Positions 9,127 through 32,139 of a stretch of DNA of 64,000 bases are shown piece after piece. The notes under the pieces are model-generated. The model was not told the origin of the DNA and did no database searches. It was given only the letters and a program-made list of their open reading frames with translations. The position numbers were made by a program, and so were the translations under genes. The DNA is from Lutibacter sp. B2 (lineage in GTDB: Bacteria; Bacillota; Clostridia; Peptostreptococcales; Thermotaleaceae): assembly GCA_015686845.1 (NCBI GenBank), contig JADPRS010000012.1, positions 1 through 64,000 of the forward strand, given 5' to 3'. Numbering within the stretch: the first letter of the stretch is position 1; the number at the start of each line of letters is the position of its first letter.

Positions 9127-12100
9127 TTAAATATATTTCTTTAATATTTCTTTTGCATTTTCATCACTATTATGAAATCTTTTAACCAACATATAATTAT
9201 ACTTATTTAAATCTTCTTCAGAATAATTACCTAAAATCTTGTCTACTAGACTTCTCACTCGATCTGATGAATCACTTGCCATATCTCCAATGAAGTCCGC
9301 TAAACTAGGCTTATAAGAAGCCATTTCAAGTGCCTTTATCCTATCTCCCACAGACATACCCTTTACATACTCAAAAGGATTTAACCTCATGGCAAATTCA
9401 CAATAAGCATCTTCATCATATAGATCTATTAAAAACTCATTAACTATTTTATAAGGCGTATTCATATCCATTAATAATTCTATATATTCAATAGCTTCTA
9501 CTTCATAGGAGTCAAAGGCTGCCTCAATACCACCTAATCCAAATTCCTTTAAGAATAACAATAGTCTCCTACGTTTATCTTCATCTATTTTCCATAGGCC
9601 ACTTGTGAAATAAGAATTAGCACGTAAATCACCAATCTCATCCTTTATATATTCTATTGAATCCATATCTATATTTCCTTTTATGTACTCAATTAGATCC
9701 TTTGTTATTTCATCTATTCTTTCCTTTGGTGCATCCTCACATGATTTTAAACTATCCTCTATGAAATCAGGGATTGTGTCATAGAACATCTTATCATGAA
9801 CATCTCCTAAAACTGTTTCATCTTCTTCAGCAACAGCTTCATAGAATCTTTCCTTTTCAGAATGGCATAAATGACTTAAAGCCTTTTCTATATCAGCACG
9901 ACTCTCTACCTTTATAAAGCTAAATCCACTAGAATCTTCATCTTCAATATAAGCTTGTACTAAAGCGTTATATCTATCATCATTACGATCTAATATCTCC
10001 CAAGCAAGGACTTTACTATGATCTTTACACAGTGATTTCATGTGCTGTCTAAAATCATACCACATTCCATTATCATGAATGCCATCTAGTCCAGATTCAG
10101 GGTTTATATAAAAAGCAGATTTCATCACCCTCATAGGCGCTAATTCAAGCAGTATTTTAATTGCTCTTTTCATAGATTGACTAGAAGGCATTCTCACCTT
10201 TAAAGCCCCTAAGTATAAGGCTGGTATTAATACCAACATGGATTCATTATCAAAGGTATCGAATATCTCATATTGAATTTGAGGATCATCACGATCTATT
10301 TCTTGCTCTAATTTTTCTTTTAATATAGGAATTATTTCTTCTAATTCTACAGTCTCTGCCTTTGGATTTAACAATGTCTTTTCTTCTATTGTCAATGAAT
10401 CTGGACCTTCCTTCATTACTTTCATCATAAGTTCTCTTGGAGGCATTGGCCTTCCCATTATATGTCTCTTTACTAGATGTAAATCTTCCTCCGTTAATTC
10501 ACTTTCTTCCTTTAGGATTTCTAAGAACATATTGATCCAGTTTTCTTCTACTATTTCCATAAAGAACTTCGTTAAGTCATCCATAACTCTATTTTCAAAA
10601 TCCTTATTAAGCATGTAAGTGGCAAATCTTATGGAAGTAGATTCAATTTCTAAACCATTTTTATAGAATTGTGCTTGAACTTCTCTTGTGATACTATCTT
10701 CTGATAATGATTTTTTAATGTCCTCTACCTCTATATTCCCCTTTAGTGCCTCTCCTTTTAATAAAATTAAAGCTTCCTCTCTATTTGCTCCCATAAATTC
10801 ATATATTCTATTTAATGCTCCACCAATAGACCTACTTCCACCCCATGATGCTTCACCAATTAAATTAGACAGTCCACCTAAGAAAAATTTACACTTTGAA
10901 TCATATCTTTCAATAAATTTTTTAGAATTCATAATTCCATAAGATACTACGTCCCTGTATAAGTCATAGTTATATACGTGATGATCTAAAAGCATTGTAA
11001 ACACATCCAATGCCCTTATTACTATATCCCGTCCTGAAGGGTCTACCCCATTAACATTCATTATAAATCCATTATTATCTTCTTCATAATAATCATTTAT
11101 GAAATCTTGAAATATATTATGAAATTCTCCCATAAAGGAATCACCTTCCCCTATGTGCCACTTTATTTTCTTTTGTATTAATAAATCCTTTTCTTTAGCA
11201 AGTTTTATTATATTAATAGGTTTGATTTCTTCTAATATGGAATCATCTTCTCCATATAATATATAGTTCCATATTTCTTCCCCATATTCAAATCCATTAA
11301 CAAAGAAATCTTCCCAAATGTTTTCTTCCTCTTCTTCATATTCATCATCTTCATCATCATACGGGTCCTTATATGGATCTGTAAGAGGTTCTCCCACATA
11401 TTCTTCTATTTCCATATGAAGTTTATAGGCTTCATTATCATAAGTATCATCTATAAATAGAACTTCTAAGTCAAGTTCTTCATCTTCATCTACTTTGTTA
11501 GATTTACTTGAATTTAATATTGTGCAATAAAAATCCTCAATAGGTCTTTTTGTATGATTCTGTTCTGAGTATTGAATATATCTTTGATTTTTAAATCGAT
11601 CCTTCATCATGGATTTAAACAGTTCATATTTTTCACTATTCTCTTTAAAATACGTTTCTAAATCAAAGGCATCATTATCATAGGCATGCCAATCATTATT
11701 AATAAGGGCATCCCTTCCTTCACTATTATCACAATAACAAAAGGCTTTCATAACTTCATCATCAAAACCTCTCTCAAAATAGATGCTTGCCATGTACTCT
11801 AATACATACCGAGCATGTTCCGTATCCCAATAGGGAATCATATATGCACCCATTAAATAAGTATACTCAGGATGCTTTTTAGCTAATATGTAAATTGGAT
11901 CAAGACCAAATACACTCATATCATCTGCCCACATTTCCCAAGTGTCATTATGTCTTCTTGCGTAATTAACTATTTCCTTAGCCGTCTTTACCACATCAGT
12001 TAATAGTTCTGGATACGTAAGCGCATGGGAGAAAAATATTCCCTCTGATGTGCTATCATTAAAATCTAACGCTCTATTGGTATAAGTTCCCTGTGAATAT

Positions 12101-12315
12101 TCCTCTATTTTTTTAAGTATTTCCAAATCTCCATGAATAGATTGAAGTGGTTTTATTGTTCTATTTTCCACATGTACAAACTCCACATCATGGACTTGAT
12201 CTATTACTACCTCATCATTCTGAAGTAAAAATTGGTATTTCTTAAGAGCATTTTTAATACTCTCGATATTACCTAGTATAAACTCTATCTTTTGATTTTT
12301 TCCAAATTGTCCCAT
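9127..12315 (-). CDS. Large acidic protein of unknown function (paralogue of its neighbour)
   Basis: I do not recognise this 1062-residue protein. It is soluble, mostly alpha-helical and very acidic, with a DEDDEYEEEEE stretch near residue 345. No membrane segment, signal peptide or nucleotide-binding motif was seen. Residues 1-250 resemble the N-terminal half of the protein encoded just upstream: both contain a segment of the type YLMGAYM..WDTEHA..VLEYM followed by a CDNSEGRDAL-like motif. The ATG at 12315 is preceded by GGAGG at ideal distance; an ATG directly after the upstream stop is part of that ribosome site. The two genes form an operon. Confidence 0.8.
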   Translation of the reverse strand: MGQFGKNQKIEFILGNIESIKNALKKYQFLLQNDEVVIDQVHDVEFVHVENRTIKPLQSIHGDLEILKKIEEYSQGTYTNRALDFNDSTSEGIFFSHALTYPELLTDVVKTAKEIVNYARRHNDTWEMWADDMSVFGLDPIYILAKKHPEYTYLMGAYMIPYWDTEHARYVLEYMASIYFERGFDDEVMKAFCYCDNSEGRDALINNDWHAYDNDAFDLETYFKENSEKYELFKSMMKDRFKNQRYIQYSEQNHTKRPIEDFYCTILNSSKSNKVDEDEELDLEVLFIDDTYDNEAYKLHMEIEEYVGEPLTDPYKDPYDDEDDEYEEEEENIWEDFFVNGFEYGEEIWNYILYGEDDSILEEIKPINIIKLAKEKDLLIQKKIKWHIGEGDSFMGEFHNIFQDFINDYYEEDNNGFIMNVNGVDPSGRDIVIRALDVFTMLLDHHVYNYDLYRDVVSYGIMNSKKFIERYDSKCKFFLGGLSNLIGEASWGGSRSIGGALNRIYEFMGANREEALILLKGEALKGNIEVEDIKKSLSEDSITREVQAQFYKNGLEIESTSIRFATYMLNKDFENRVMDDLTKFFMEIVEENWINMFLEILKEESELTEEDLHLVKRHIMGRPMPPRELMMKVMKEGPDSLTIEEKTLLNPKAETVELEEIIPILKEKLEQEIDRDDPQIQYEIFDTFDNESMLVLIPALYLGALKVRMPSSQSMKRAIKILLELAPMRVMKSAFYINPESGLDGIHDNGMWYDFRQHMKSLCKDHSKVLAWEILDRNDDRYNALVQAYIEDEDSSGFSFIKVESRADIEKALSHLCHSEKERFYEAVAEEDETVLGDVHDKMFYDTIPDFIEDSLKSCEDAPKERIDEITKDLIEYIKGNIDMDSIEYIKDEIGDLRANSYFTSGLWKIDEDKRRRLLLFLKEFGLGGIEAAFDSYEVEAIEYIELLMDMNTPYKIVNEFLIDLYDEDAYCEFAMRLNPFEYVKGMSVGDRIKALEMASYKPSLADFIGDMASDSSDRVRSLVDKILGNYSEEDLNKYNYMLVKRFHNSDENAKEILKKYI

Positions 12316-12327
12316 AGTAGCCTCCAT

Positions 12328-27282: not shown

Positions 27283-27337
27283 AAAAAAATACACCCCTTC
27301 CACATTGTTTATATCCTAAAATAAACAATGTGGAAGG
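27283..27337 (-). terminator. Terminator behind tubZ
   Basis: A 17-bp perfect stem (27296-27312 with 27321-27337) around an eight-base loop. On the minus strand TTTTTTT follows after a short GGTGTA spacer. It separates tubZ from the MoxR operon. Confidence 0.7.
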
Positions 27338-27369
27338 AATGATTTATACATAACTTTACCCATTAGATT

Positions 27370-28596
27370 CTACCACTCTATATCATCCATTGTATCTCTT
27401 GTGGTTTTACGCCTACGTCTACTACTTCTTGATATTGTTTTATTATCATCCTCTTTAGGTACTTCAATCATAGATTTAAGTTCATCACTTACAGTAGCAG
27501 CCACTTCATAACTGTGTAGTTTATAATCTAAATTAATTGATCCTATATCATCTCTTTCTTTCTTTTTATTTTCTGATACTTTATTCTTTACTTCTATCTC
27601 TTTTAATTTGCACTCATATTTATCAAAAATTGCTACTGGTCGGGATAGTCCTGCAAAATAACCAATACTCACTGCATCTGGATTATGATTTATTGCTTTA
27701 AAAGTTTTCTTAGGATTATTGCCTCCCACAGTAGCTAATTCTTTTATTAAACTATCTAATTCAACTAAACGACTAGCCTCATTTTCTAATTTCCCTTTAT
27801 ATTTCTCCATATCTTTTATTGACATAACTGCACTAATTAATTCTGCATCATCCGATTCTAAAATACAAGTATCTGATTGAAAGATAGAACAATCCGTTTC
27901 ATTTGTATTCTTCCCAAAATAATAACTTAAATTTAACTTTCCTATGTAGGAGTATCCTTTATATGTAATCGTTTCAAATTGTTCTGCAGTATCAAAATTA
28001 GCATAAGTATTGCCGTTTAAAACATCTATTATTGAATTGGCTAAAGTACAAAACTTTTTATTTACTATATCTACTGTTCCACTATTATTATCTATTAACA
28101 TGATATTATTTATGTGACCCATTTGCATCAATCCATGAAATTCAAGTAGTGCATTTCTAGTATTTAATATAGTAATTCCATCTATTTCTGAGTCAGGAGG
28201 TAATATTGCTATCAAATTTATAATTTTAGGAGCCACATCCTCCTCTTTCCATAATCTATTAAGTTCACTTACAATTACGGGTGTTCCTCCTGAGCCTGTC
28301 CCTCCCGAGAGAGAAGTTATAATATATATAACATCCTTATGCTGAAATTTGCGTTCTATTTTATCAAATAAACTTACACCTTTTATCATATTACTAAATG
28401 TTACTTTTTTAGCTTTATCTCTGTCCTTGCCTACCCCATCCGCTCCTTCAAGTTTTACAGCTTCTGCCACATTTATATTAGACAAGTCATCTGCTGAAGT
28501 ATTAATTGCTAATGCTTCATAGCTTCTTTTAGCGAAATATTCTGTCATATTTCCACCGGCCATGCCCATTCCTATAATCCCTACACGACTTTTCAT
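27370..28596 (-). CDS. tubZ: TubZ-like tubulin/FtsZ-family GTPase
   Basis: Cytomotive filament protein. The tubulin signature SGGTGSG is at residues 97-103. The N-terminal Rossmann segment (VGIIGMGMAGGNM), ALAINTSADDL, KLEGADGVGKDRDKA, LIAILPPDSE and NIMLIDNN line up in order with the TubZ of the Bacillus thuringiensis pBtoxis plasmid as I recall it. Cell-division FtsZ features are missing (no GGGTGTG loop or FtsZ C-terminal peptide). The C-terminal tail has a basic patch (SRSSRRRRKTTR) like the TubR-contacting tails of TubZ, then an acidic end. AAGGGGAGA precedes the ATG and overlaps the tubR stop. Confidence 0.85.
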   Translation of the reverse strand: MKSRVGIIGMGMAGGNMTEYFAKRSYEALAINTSADDLSNINVAEAVKLEGADGVGKDRDKAKKVTFSNMIKGVSLFDKIERKFQHKDVIYIITSLSGGTGSGGTPVIVSELNRLWKEEDVAPKIINLIAILPPDSEIDGITILNTRNALLEFHGLMQMGHINNIMLIDNNSGTVDIVNKKFCTLANSIIDVLNGNTYANFDTAEQFETITYKGYSYIGKLNLSYYFGKNTNETDCSIFQSDTCILESDDAELISAVMSIKDMEKYKGKLENEASRLVELDSLIKELATVGGNNPKKTFKAINHNPDAVSIGYFAGLSRPVAIFDKYECKLKEIEVKNKVSENKKKERDDIGSINLDYKLHSYEVAATVSDELKSMIEVPKEDDNKTISRSSRRRRKTTRDTMDDIEW

Positions 28597-28611
28597 TTTA
28601 ATTTCTCCCCT

Positions 28612-28899
28612 TTATCTCTCGTATTCTATTGTAATCGCTTCACCTTCTGTTGTTATACAAAATGTTTTAGTCATATTTACTCTGACCCCATCCTGTATAT
28701 ACCCCTTCTTTTTTAATGCAGCTATTCTTTTGCGAAGTGTACTCTCTGATGCACTTAGGATGCTTATTCCCTTTTTTTCATTTTGTATTTGTGCTTCTTC
28801 TTTTATATGTTTTACTATCATTTTAAAAGATGCTCCTTTTATTCTATTAAACCCTTCTAAAAAAAATAAAAGTTCCACATCTGTCATTGTCATGCCCAT
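28612..28899 (-). CDS. tubR: TubR-like winged-helix DNA-binding protein
   Basis: A 95-residue winged helix-turn-helix protein (SASESTLRKRIAALKKKGYIQDG as recognition region and wing, given in part). Position directly before tubZ and behind a phased repeat array is that of TubR, the adaptor that binds the centromere and links it to the TubZ filament, and usually represses its own operon. The ATG at 28899 has AGGAG nine bases upstream; a TTG three codons earlier is too close to that site. Assignment rests on context as much as on sequence. Confidence 0.72.
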   Translation of the reverse strand: MGMTMTDVELLFFLEGFNRIKGASFKMIVKHIKEEAQIQNEKKGISILSASESTLRKRIAALKKKGYIQDGVRVNMTKTFCITTEGEAITIEYER

Positions 28900-28922
28900 T
28901 TTTTCCAACTCCTTACAATATA

Positions 28923-28951
28923 AGTATAATGTTTAATTGTAATTTTGTCAA
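28923..28951 (-). promoter_or_regulatory. Promoter of tubRZ
   Basis: On the minus strand TTGACA (28951-28946), exactly 17 bases, then TATACT (28928-28923). The repeat array begins 14 bases upstream of the -35, so bound TubR would lie next to RNA polymerase. Confidence 0.8.
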
Positions 28952-28965
28952 TATTCTAACATCTA

Positions 28966-29145
28966 TTTTTCCATTCATTTTCCACCTAATCGTTCGTCAT
29001 ATTCCTACCATTTTCTAACCCTTTACAATTCACATATATTACTTTTATCCTTTATCAGTGTTCTTTTTCCATCCGTTTTCCATTAAAATTCCATTTATTT
29101 ACCATCTATATTTATAGTCCCTTCCTCTATTCTTCTTTCATTCAT
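28966..29145. repeat. Candidate tubC centromere: helically phased TTTTCCA repeats
   Basis: Degenerate units of about 11 bases with core TTTTCCAT recur in register: TTCCA at 28969, 28980, 29067, 29078 and 29089, with weaker units TTCCT at 29002, TTCTA at 29013, TTACC at 29099, TTCCT at 29122 and TTCTT at 29133. The block 29065-29108 has four units in tandem. The plus strand is strongly pyrimidine-rich. There is no gene here. Location upstream of tubR matches known tubC sites. Confidence 0.6.
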
Positions 29146-29199: not shown

Positions 29200-29246
29200 A
29201 CCCCTTAAAGTAGTTTATTGACAATTTCTTGTCTACTTTAAGGGGT
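29200..29246. terminator. Long hairpin behind phaC
   Basis: ACCCCTTAAAGTAG (29200-29213) pairs perfectly with CTACTTTAAGGGGT (29233-29246) around a 19-base loop. It is about 70 bases past the phaC stop. Only a weak T-rich tail follows, so it may terminate or stabilise the pha message. A role as boundary of the tubC region is also possible. Confidence 0.45.
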
Positions 29247-29317: not shown

Positions 29318-30394
29318 CTACTTAGATTTTGAATGATCCTTTGTCCATTTAGCCATTTTAGGAGCAATTTCCTTTTGGGATTTGGAACTTACGTACATAC
29401 CAATATGTCCTACTGAGAAAGAAAATGATTCCTTGTCTTTACTAGATACTAAATCATTTAAAGGTTTACTTGACGCAGGAGGAACCAAGTGATCATACTC
29501 TGCATAAATATTAAGTAGTGGCATATTTATATTTTTTAAATCAACTTTTTGTTCACCAATTTCTAATGTTCCTTTCACAAGTTTATTTTCCTTGTATAAA
29601 TCATTAACAAATTGACGAAGCGTCTCACCTGCTTGATCAGGACTGTCGAATATCCACTTTTCCATCCTCATAAAATTCTTCATCATATCTGGATCATCTA
29701 TATTTTCCAAAACACCAACATATTTATCTAACATCAATTGAAAAGGTTTAAGCATCATATACCCATAATTCATCATAGAACCAGGTATAACACCATAAGC
29801 ATCTACCATATTATCTATATTTAAATGTTTCCCCCATTTAAACAATAAGCCATCTTCTATATCAAAGTCTATAGGCGTAACCATAGTAATTAAACTATTA
29901 ACCTTCTGTGGATTAAGAGCTGAGTAAATTGTAGAGAAAGTACCGCCTTGGCATACACCTATAATATTTAATTTATCTATATTATTAGACTGTAAAATAT
30001 GATCTACTGCATCATTAATATACCCGTTGATATAGTCATCCATAGTAAGATACCTATCTTCTTGTGTAGGATATCCCCAATCCACAATATATAAATCAAG
30101 ACCTAATTCTAATAAGTTTTTTATTATACTGCGATCTGGCTGAATATCCATCATATATGGACGATTCACTAGAGCATAAACAATCAAAGTAGGAACTTTA
30201 CAAGGTCTTTTAGACTGATTTTCATAATGGTAAAGCTTCATTTTATCTTCTTGAAATACAAGTTCTTTTGGTGTTACATCTACTTCTATATCCTCAAGAT
30301 TTTGTAAAACCTCTATCCCTTTAACAAATTTTTTCTGTACATCAAGCATTTCTTTCATAGATTTTTCCATATCTATTCCCAAAGTTGAATACAT
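29318..30394 (-). CDS. phaC: Class III poly(3-hydroxyalkanoate) synthase subunit PhaC
   Basis: Polymerises (R)-3-hydroxyacyl-CoA into storage polyester on granules, together with PhaE. The alpha/beta-hydrolase has the nucleophile Cys148 in GVCQGG, Asp301 in IYAEYDHLVPP and His330 in SVGHIG. These positions match the catalytic triad of class III synthases. Length 358 is typical of class III rather than the longer class I/II enzymes. Last gene of phaJ-phaE-phaC. Confidence 0.93.
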   Translation of the reverse strand: MYSTLGIDMEKSMKEMLDVQKKFVKGIEVLQNLEDIEVDVTPKELVFQEDKMKLYHYENQSKRPCKVPTLIVYALVNRPYMMDIQPDRSIIKNLLELGLDLYIVDWGYPTQEDRYLTMDDYINGYINDAVDHILQSNNIDKLNIIGVCQGGTFSTIYSALNPQKVNSLITMVTPIDFDIEDGLLFKWGKHLNIDNMVDAYGVIPGSMMNYGYMMLKPFQLMLDKYVGVLENIDDPDMMKNFMRMEKWIFDSPDQAGETLRQFVNDLYKENKLVKGTLEIGEQKVDLKNINMPLLNIYAEYDHLVPPASSKPLNDLVSSKDKESFSFSVGHIGMYVSSKSQKEIAPKMAKWTKDHSKSK

Positions 30395-30429
30395 TGGTAA
30401 ATACCCCCTTAGTTATTTTTTCTTTCGTT

Positions 30430-30575
30430 ATTATAGATAAACTACTTCATTCTTTAATCTAAAAGGGTGTAATTATATAATAAGGAATGACTTGCAATCT
30501 TCATACTTGCCGGAATGACGTTTATATCATTACACCCCTGCCATACATTTAATTTAGAAGTAGTTTGTCTATAAT
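30430..30575. repeat. Nested inverted repeat between phaE and phaC
   Basis: ATTATAGATAAACTACTTC (30430-30448) faces GAAGTAGTTTGTCTATAAT (30557-30575) with one mismatch, which would be a G-U pair in RNA. Inside them GGGTGTAAT (30465-30473) faces ATTACACCC (30529-30537). The 146-base unit fills most of the phaE-phaC gap. It could be a miniature transposable element or a folded mRNA segment that sets the PhaC:PhaE ratio. No clear target duplication was found. Confidence 0.6.
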
Positions 30576-30579
30576 GCAT

Positions 30580-31686
30580 TTATGCATTCTTTTCCTTATC
30601 ATTTAATCTATTTTTTACTTCCTTAAGTTCTTTAGTTGTGTTTCTTACTGATTTCTTTAATTCATAGATTGTCTTATACATGCTATTCATATCTGTCTTA
30701 GTAGGAAAAGGTAGAAAAGCTAATTGTTGCTCAAGTACTTTATCATAATTTTTTTTAAACTCACCACCTGCATCAACAACTTGACTTAGCAGTTTAGAAA
30801 AGCCATCTGTTTCAAAAAGATTGTTATAAGCCTCTTCATTTTTTCTCGACCAATATTCATAAAATTCTTTAAAAGTTTTAGGTTGCGTTTCGTCTTTTAT
30901 CATATCTTGTAAATCTTGTGAAATTTTTTCCATTGTTTCTATTCCAACTCTAGAAATAGTTGCTGTAAACTCATTTATTGAATTTGTATATTTCATAAAA
31001 GAATCTACACTACCTACTTGTTTTTCAAAATACTCTCTATTTATGCCCATAATAGGAGCACCAAATAATTTGCCAAATGTCTGTTCGTAATTTCCACCCA
31101 AAAGTTTTGCATAGTTAATATAAGCATCTTTATCTTCAAAAATATTTGTACCCATTAATTTTTGAAATTCCTTAGCATGATCAGTCCATGGTTGGAACAA
31201 TTTATTACTATTTTCAAAATACATTTGATATGTTTCCATAGACTGTTTAAATAAACTCTGTGTAGGCTCAGGCAAATAAGAAATAAAGGTATTAGAAAAA
31301 CTCTTCATATATTCATCTTGCCATTTGCTAAAAAACTTTTTCACTTGATCATTAGAATTTCCTGAAATTTGTTTCGTCAAGTCCTCCCAAAAACCATATA
31401 AGGAAGAATAAGTATTTGTGCTATTGGTCATTTTTTCAAAAACCTCTTGAAAAGGATTTTGTCCAAATAGCATACTGTTTTTTGTAAACATATCACCATT
31501 CATCATTCCAACCCAATTATTAAACATCTCCATTGGCTTTTTTACCATATTATTCATATTATTCACTGTATCTGACTCTTTTTTTTCATCTTTAGGTGAA
31601 AAACTTTCTTGCCACATATCTAAAGCTTTCTTTTGTGTATCAAAGCATTGTCCCATAAATTTATTATAATTATCTAAAAATAACAT
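30580..31686 (-). CDS. phaE: Class III PHA synthase subunit PhaE
   Basis: Non-catalytic partner of PhaC. The 368-residue, highly charged helical protein shows the PhaE-type features QKKALDMWQESF near the N-terminus, FKEFYEYWSRKNEEAYNNLF in the C-terminal half, and a heptad-rich end (TKTDMNSMYKTIYELKKSV). Identity rests on these and on lying between phaJ and phaC. The ATG is preceded by AGGGGG. Confidence 0.85.
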   Translation of the reverse strand: MLFLDNYNKFMGQCFDTQKKALDMWQESFSPKDEKKESDTVNNMNNMVKKPMEMFNNWVGMMNGDMFTKNSMLFGQNPFQEVFEKMTNSTNTYSSLYGFWEDLTKQISGNSNDQVKKFFSKWQDEYMKSFSNTFISYLPEPTQSLFKQSMETYQMYFENSNKLFQPWTDHAKEFQKLMGTNIFEDKDAYINYAKLLGGNYEQTFGKLFGAPIMGINREYFEKQVGSVDSFMKYTNSINEFTATISRVGIETMEKISQDLQDMIKDETQPKTFKEFYEYWSRKNEEAYNNLFETDGFSKLLSQVVDAGGEFKKNYDKVLEQQLAFLPFPTKTDMNSMYKTIYELKKSVRNTTKELKEVKNRLNDKEKNA

Positions 31687-31722
31687 TTAAATTCCCCCTT
31701 ATGTTTTAGAATAATATTAGAA

Positions 31723-32139
31723 TTACATTTTTTTTACCACAGCTTCTCCCGCTAAAATCTCATTTCCTAATTGGTTCTTTACAATTGTATTTAAAATAAT
31801 AATCTTTTTTTCATCCCTTTTTTCTTTCACCTCTACAGTAGCTGTCAGATGGTCTCCTATATACGCAGGTGCTAAAAATTTCACATTTTGAGATAAATAT
31901 AGGGTATTTTCACCGGGTAATTGGGTTCCTAAAACAGCGGAAATTAAAGAACTAGTAAGCATACCATGGGCAATTCTCTTTTTAAATCTAGTTTTAGAAG
32001 CATACTCTGCATTAAGATGTATGGGATTATAATCTCCTGAAATATTTGCAAATCCTGAAATATCACTTTCTGTTATAATCTTAGAAACACTTGCCTTTTC
32101 TCCTATCATTATTTCCTCATATCTTTTCTCTGCTCCCAT
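31723..32139 (-). CDS. phaJ: (R)-specific enoyl-CoA hydratase, MaoC family
   Basis: Hot-dog-fold hydratase that converts trans-2-enoyl-CoA to (R)-3-hydroxyacyl-CoA, the PhaC/PhaE substrate. The hydratase-2 motif is visible as ANISGDYNPIHLN, with catalytic Asp and His, followed by RIAHGMLTSSLIS. 138 residues, normal for PhaJ. First gene of the pha operon, so monomers probably come from enoyl-CoAs rather than through a PhaB reductase, which is not in the window. Confidence 0.88.
   Translation of the reverse strand: MGAEKRYEEIMIGEKASVSKIITESDISGFANISGDYNPIHLNAEYASKTRFKKRIAHGMLTSSLISAVLGTQLPGENTLYLSQNVKFLAPAYIGDHLTATVEVKEKRDEKKIIILNTIVKNQLGNEILAGEAVVKKM

Follow-up and report, generated by a model that had tools for sequence, protein, structure and literature searches.

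A TubR–TubZ module between chromosomal operons of Lutibacter sp. B2 and a second TubR-type repeat array elsewhere in the genome

The tubulin-like motors of bacteria are familiar chiefly as plasmid and phage tools. The TubZRC system of Clostridium botulinum phage c-st (TubZ 3v3t/4xcq, TubR 6tey) is phage-borne, has a small winged helix-turn-helix TubR gene directly upstream of tubZ and repeats upstream of tubR, and includes TubY (PMC7762940, PMC5322520). TubR at tubC both builds the segrosome and represses tubRZ (PMC7762940), and the TubZ tail contacts the TubR–tubC complex (PMC7762940, PMC5322520). The type III systems of Bacillus plasmids (pBtoxis TubZ, B. cereus TubZ/TubR) have the order tubC-tubR-tubZ, and tubZ/tubR of such plasmids also act as minireplicons (PMC4219350). 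On some clostridial chromosomes, TubY and TubZ have been reported without TubR (PMC7762940); noted with TubY and without a DNA adaptor, chromosomal TubZ did not seem likely to move host DNA.

The locus described here lies in a 64,000-nucleotide stretch of DNA from Lutibacter sp. B2 (the window), part of a 90,522-bp contig (C54) in a draft genome of 77 contigs. A sequence-only reading of the window had described a repeat array, a promoter, a winged-helix gene and a TubZ-like GTPase gene in the order of a type III partition system, and we found every one of these elements in its place. On the minus strand, from 29105 to 27293, a phased repeat array, a promoter, the winged-helix gene, a 408-aa GTPase gene and a terminator follow one another, with an inverted repeat upstream:

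29201..29245, minus strand: inverted repeat after phaC (CCCCTTAAAGTAG...CTACTTTAAGGGG), read directly from the sequence
29062..29105, minus strand: tubC block 1, four 11-bp units, ATGGTAAATAA ATGGAATTTTA ATGGAAAACGG ATGGAAAAAGA
28964..28985, minus strand: tubC block 2, two 11-bp units, GTGGAAAATGA ATGGAAAAATA
28923..28951, minus strand: tubRZ promoter, TTGACA-17-TATACT, matching the consensus at 11/12 positions
28612..28899, minus strand: tubR, winged-helix centromere-binding protein, by TubR profile match and structure model
27370..28596, minus strand: tubZ, TubZ-type GTPase of the tubulin/FtsZ superfamily, 408 aa, by sequence, tree and predicted structure
27293..27340, minus strand: tubRZ intrinsic terminator, 20-pair stem then T run, from the terminator scan

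The inverted repeat at 29245-29201 is the probable end of the phaC transcript and the probable upstream border of the module; its loop is long, so it does not appear in the terminator scan listing. Together with the terminator after tubZ, it separates the module from its neighbours. The tubRZ promoter was the best of the promoter-like matches and is rightly placed, its -35 box lying 12 bp past the last tubC unit, but such matches as a class were not above shuffles. The winged-helix ORF (28908..28612, minus strand) encodes 98 aa from TTG 28908 or 95 aa from ATG 28899, and the ATG is the likelier tubR start because just 1 nt separates the TTG from the AAGGAG at 28915-28910.

By sequence, tree and predicted structure, the 408-aa GTPase belongs with TubZ, and it comes nearest to the TubZ of clostridial phage c-st. 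It matched Pfam Tubulin (E 2e-9) and the phage families phrog_17961 (E 3e-12) and PhuZ (E 1e-8), and c-st phage TubZ gave its best solved relatives (phmmer, E 1.5e-13). An AlphaFold2 model built on 17 sequences (pLDDT 79, pTM 0.79) again placed c-st TubZ at the top in both Foldseek and VIA-align (Z 33.9, rmsd 2.3 over 295 residues), followed by Bacillus TubZ (Z 29-31) and CetZ. The sequence-only reading had proposed structure prediction against TubZ and FtsZ as a check, and the best FtsZ reached only Z 26.3. FtsZ shares the superfamily and the GTP-binding loop with this protein, but we rejected an FtsZ identity: the score on the FtsZ model TIGR00065 was 30.2 bits against a cut-off of 295.2, and FtsZ formed its own branch in the tree (100/100). 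Placement of the GTPase outside TubZ, which that reading had named as grounds for giving up its proposal, was not seen; the protein fell within phage TubZ on a long branch. Residues G98-G101 of the GTP-binding loop (GGTGSG) and the T7 residue D202 are invariant among relatives. The genome's true ftsZ is on another contig (C13), away from tubZ. Compared with c-st TubZ, the fold is the same at 22% identity, and the protein is longer (408 aa versus about 360 aa). The model becomes low in confidence from residue 352 (pLDDT <50 across residues 352-399), and this tail contains a basic cluster, SRSSRRRRKTTR, so model and sequence together give TubZ a predicted flexible, basic C-terminal tail.

Judged by its sequence, the small gene upstream of tubZ is TubR, and this agrees with the TubR-TubZ identity first proposed for the pair. 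A profile of 13 phage and element TubRs that excluded the gene itself matched it with E 3.2e-11 in a search of 600 ORFs, the next ORF reaching E 0.014; c-st TubR (6tey) matched with E 0.089. The predicted structure is a winged helix (pLDDT 82), like the Bacillus TubRs (6aht, 4asn) that were among its fold matches. A winged helix fits TubR but also many repressors, and VIA-align of the model did not separate TubR from PadR, MarR and RosR folds. The identification therefore relies on sequence and position, the fold comparison being unable to discriminate.

As in type III systems, a repeat array stands upstream of the tubR-tubZ operon; tubC consists of six degenerate units at 11-bp phase; four, at exact 11-bp steps, span 29105-29062, and the other two 28985-28964. 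In a blind analysis, the lag of 11 bp upstream of tubR exceeded shuffles only modestly (z 3.4 for lag 11; P 0.04 over all lags). The array became much more convincing with the discovery of a second copy elsewhere in the genome. A whole-genome search with the iteron pattern found, apart from tubC and scattered matches, five units, ATGGAAAATGA ACGGAAAAAAG ATGGAATAAAG ATGGAAAAAGG ATGGGCGACAA, in exact 11-bp phase on contig C31 (C31:93882-93936, equal to L176:5883-5937), oriented to the downstream gene as tubC is. On the tubC-defined grid of ATGGAA x4, tubC block 1 and the C31 array each scored 23/24. In a fourth-order Markov simulation of 600 Mb on the same grid, 0.054 arrays per genome were expected at a score of at least 21 and none was seen at 22 or above; the chance expectation for an array like that on C31 is well under 0.05 per genome. 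Among 16 family genomes, tubC and the C31 array were the only overlapping matches (arrays of at least four units), all others being single. This family comparison is weak by itself, as one extra array has an approximately 6% chance of falling in the tubRZ-bearing genome, and the simulation carries the weight. We dismissed an exact iteron match at C8:25786, inside a dapF-like gene, as chance, and a match at C66:54653 and the single matches in relatives occurred near the rate expected by chance.

Two divergent ABC-transporter operons flank the C31 array, which stops about 85 bp short of the ATG of a gene for a MacB-like 769-aa ABC exporter. No clear promoter for the exporter gene was made out beside the array. 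An ECF sigma-factor-like gene is present further downstream of the exporter.

The chromosomal TubY-TubZ loci of Clostridiaceae resemble the C54 locus in having TubZ among ordinary chromosomal genes. In the family of one such genome (G632), relatives of its chromosomal TubZ were found in 30 of 207 genomes, most copies being 74-89% identical across genera. TubY was divergently encoded at 19 of the 20 loci whose flanks were read, and a separate small TubR at none of the 20; a TubR-profile match at one locus (L158) was set aside, being the TubY reading frame. Accompanied by a divergent TubY but by no TubR, this conserved chromosomal TubZ (L074 of G632, L141-L160) resembles a maintained host function. 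The module on C54, in contrast, has TubR and tubC, and its TubZ is only 26% identical to the G632 type. No TubY was found on C54, and genome-wide there was only a weak 129-aa MerR match, from a profile of two TubYs that could miss a divergent one; TubY was also unseen at most TubRZ phage loci. With TubR present and TubY not found, the module falls outside the TubY-TubZ class. The suggestion that a chromosomal TubZ would be notable holds for the presence of TubR and tubC with TubY not found, but a TubZ on a chromosome has precedent (PMC7762940) and is not new in itself; the C54 locus is the reverse form.

Closer parallels in gene content are found on mobile elements. Clostridial phage-plasmids (61 IMG/VR loci and a 146-kb Clostridium rectalis contig) have the same two-gene tubR-tubZ operon, with TubY seen in only 2 of the 61 loci, and the C. 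rectalis tubR has 11- and 22-bp lags upstream, similar to tubC. These TubR-paired relatives differ in sitting on viral or element contigs and in TubZ sequence (approximately 20-30% identical to the C54 protein), and the Bacillus proteins are more distant in sequence and plasmid-borne. In another genome (G446), tubRZ is found near dapA/dapB, within an integrated element-like stretch and next to an FtsK-like gene. In two elements, at L076:7453-9467 and L075:11532-13731, an FtsK/SpoIIIE-like gene and a partner of about 230 aa lacking a Pfam match occur near tubRZ. Relatives were few in class-wide and phylum-wide samples, the nearest known TubR and TubZ being approximately 25-30% identical to the C54 proteins, and a single-sequence search of plasmids, phages, and viral and genome contigs found no close homologs and only weak plasmid matches. 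Matches to phrog_17961 across the order proved, C54's own protein aside, to be FtsZ in the proteins checked, and a 485-aa tubulin-like protein with a 119-aa winged helix-turn-helix neighbour (G063:C52) grouped with the long-branch L138 in the tree and was set aside.

Upstream of tubRZ is phaJ-phaE-phaC, and downstream is a MoxR/DUF58 operon that includes SpoIIM and RDD genes. There are two phaJ-phaE-phaC operons in the genome (window 29318-32139 and G000:C62:17331-18392, L068), with PhaC copies 75% identical, and at 9127-12327 the window also encodes a 1066-aa protein with no Pfam match. The MoxR and pha operons are each syntenic in same-family genomes but lie apart there (for example, at 2.03 and 2.31 Mb of a 3.05-Mb contig in G006), placing tubRZ at a synteny breakpoint between two chromosomal blocks. 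These flanks uphold the chromosomal setting first proposed for the module and leave the alternative of a megaplasmid or chromid unsupported as far as can be judged. C54 showed no circularity, and the genes scanned around the module included none of phage, plasmid or conjugation type, in agreement with the earlier description of the neighbourhood. With chromosomal flanks on both sides rather than residence on a low-copy plasmid or phage that it segregates, we class the locus as a TubR-TubZ module and not as a plasmid partition system. The term partition module describes its parts (tubC, TubR and TubZ) and not a demonstrated function, since no plasmid is attached and a second array lies elsewhere. 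The same locus had also been expected to be worth seeking at the same place in relatives, but a TubZ relative and the module were missing from all 15 same-family genomes compared, which provides no evidence of long-term selection on it.

We suggest, at about even odds in our own judgement, that the locus is a type III (tubC-TubR-TubZ) module of phage or plasmid ancestry, still intact and now alone on the chromosome, with two chromosomal targets for TubR. The TubZ and TubR identities, the phased array, an operon that has a promoter and a terminator of its own, the chromosomal blocks on both sides and the C31 array can all be read from the sequence. TubR would bind the 11-bp units and repress its own promoter, and would also occupy the C31 array, so that its chromosomal targets would include at least one site other than its own operator. 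In the presence of GTP, TubZ would polymerise; its basic tail could touch TubR–DNA complexes, and TubZ may link the sites to which TubR is bound. The repeats' second occurrence hints that the host has taken the module over, and a TubR-type array away from tubC suggests that its role has changed. Since the module has an additional chromosomal site but no plasmid to segregate, we favour a host role, in regulation or in the positioning of loci, and would give it roughly half our confidence. In its likeliest present role the module would control the exporter gene, position the two loci or do both, and would not serve plasmid inheritance. That the chromosome has taken over the module, with TubR binding both arrays as a regulator, TubZ filaments positioning the loci, or both, without TubY, is a tentative proposal.

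The main rival to a host role is an eroding relic, which we consider possible but doubtful. A phage-plasmid may have integrated and been lost except for tubC-tubR-tubZ, leaving the module functionless or merely autorepressed and the C31 array as a rearranged remnant; that array could indeed be a leftover and not a working site. The synteny breakpoint, the absence from relatives, the TubR-paired relatives on viral or element contigs and the element-like stretch in G446 are all consistent with such a scar. However, the ORFs, promoter, array and terminator are all intact, nothing else of an element remains, GC content and GC3 of the module are similar to those of its neighbours and match the host, and a scar leaves unexplained a same-orientation array upstream of a gene on another contig. 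We found no tRNA or Rfam element as an integration site.

Less probable, and in our view unlikely, is that the module is kept as protection, with chromosomal TubR and the tubC arrays upsetting the partition of incoming phage-plasmids that share TubR sites. Related TubRZ loci do occur on large clostridial phage-plasmid contigs, and an integrative element is reported to interfere with the parABS of a plasmid and to expel that plasmid (PMC10954446), but the nearest known TubR and TubZ are only about 25-30% identical, which speaks against this reading. We think it very improbable that TubRZ is a host partition system that separates chromosomal sites. Chromosomal contigs do carry the motor, the adaptor and two adaptor-type arrays, but the search found just one strong array in addition to tubC, relatives do without the module, and the presence of ParB-family genes in the genome makes a main role in chromosome segregation unlikely. 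The slimmest prospect is an assembly artefact, in which a piece of some unassembled plasmid or phage, carrying tubRZ, was misjoined between two chromosomal contigs, as a 77-contig draft and the breakpoint might allow, but the foreign part would be only about 1.9 kb, has no long repeat at its edges and no other element gene alongside, and GC content and the sign of GC skew hold steady across the junctions.

A host role remains our preferred reading of the module. A chromosomal motor together with its adaptor and two adaptor-type arrays makes a role in moving host DNA directly testable, and the C54 locus would be an example of a selfish segregation machine handed over to its host.
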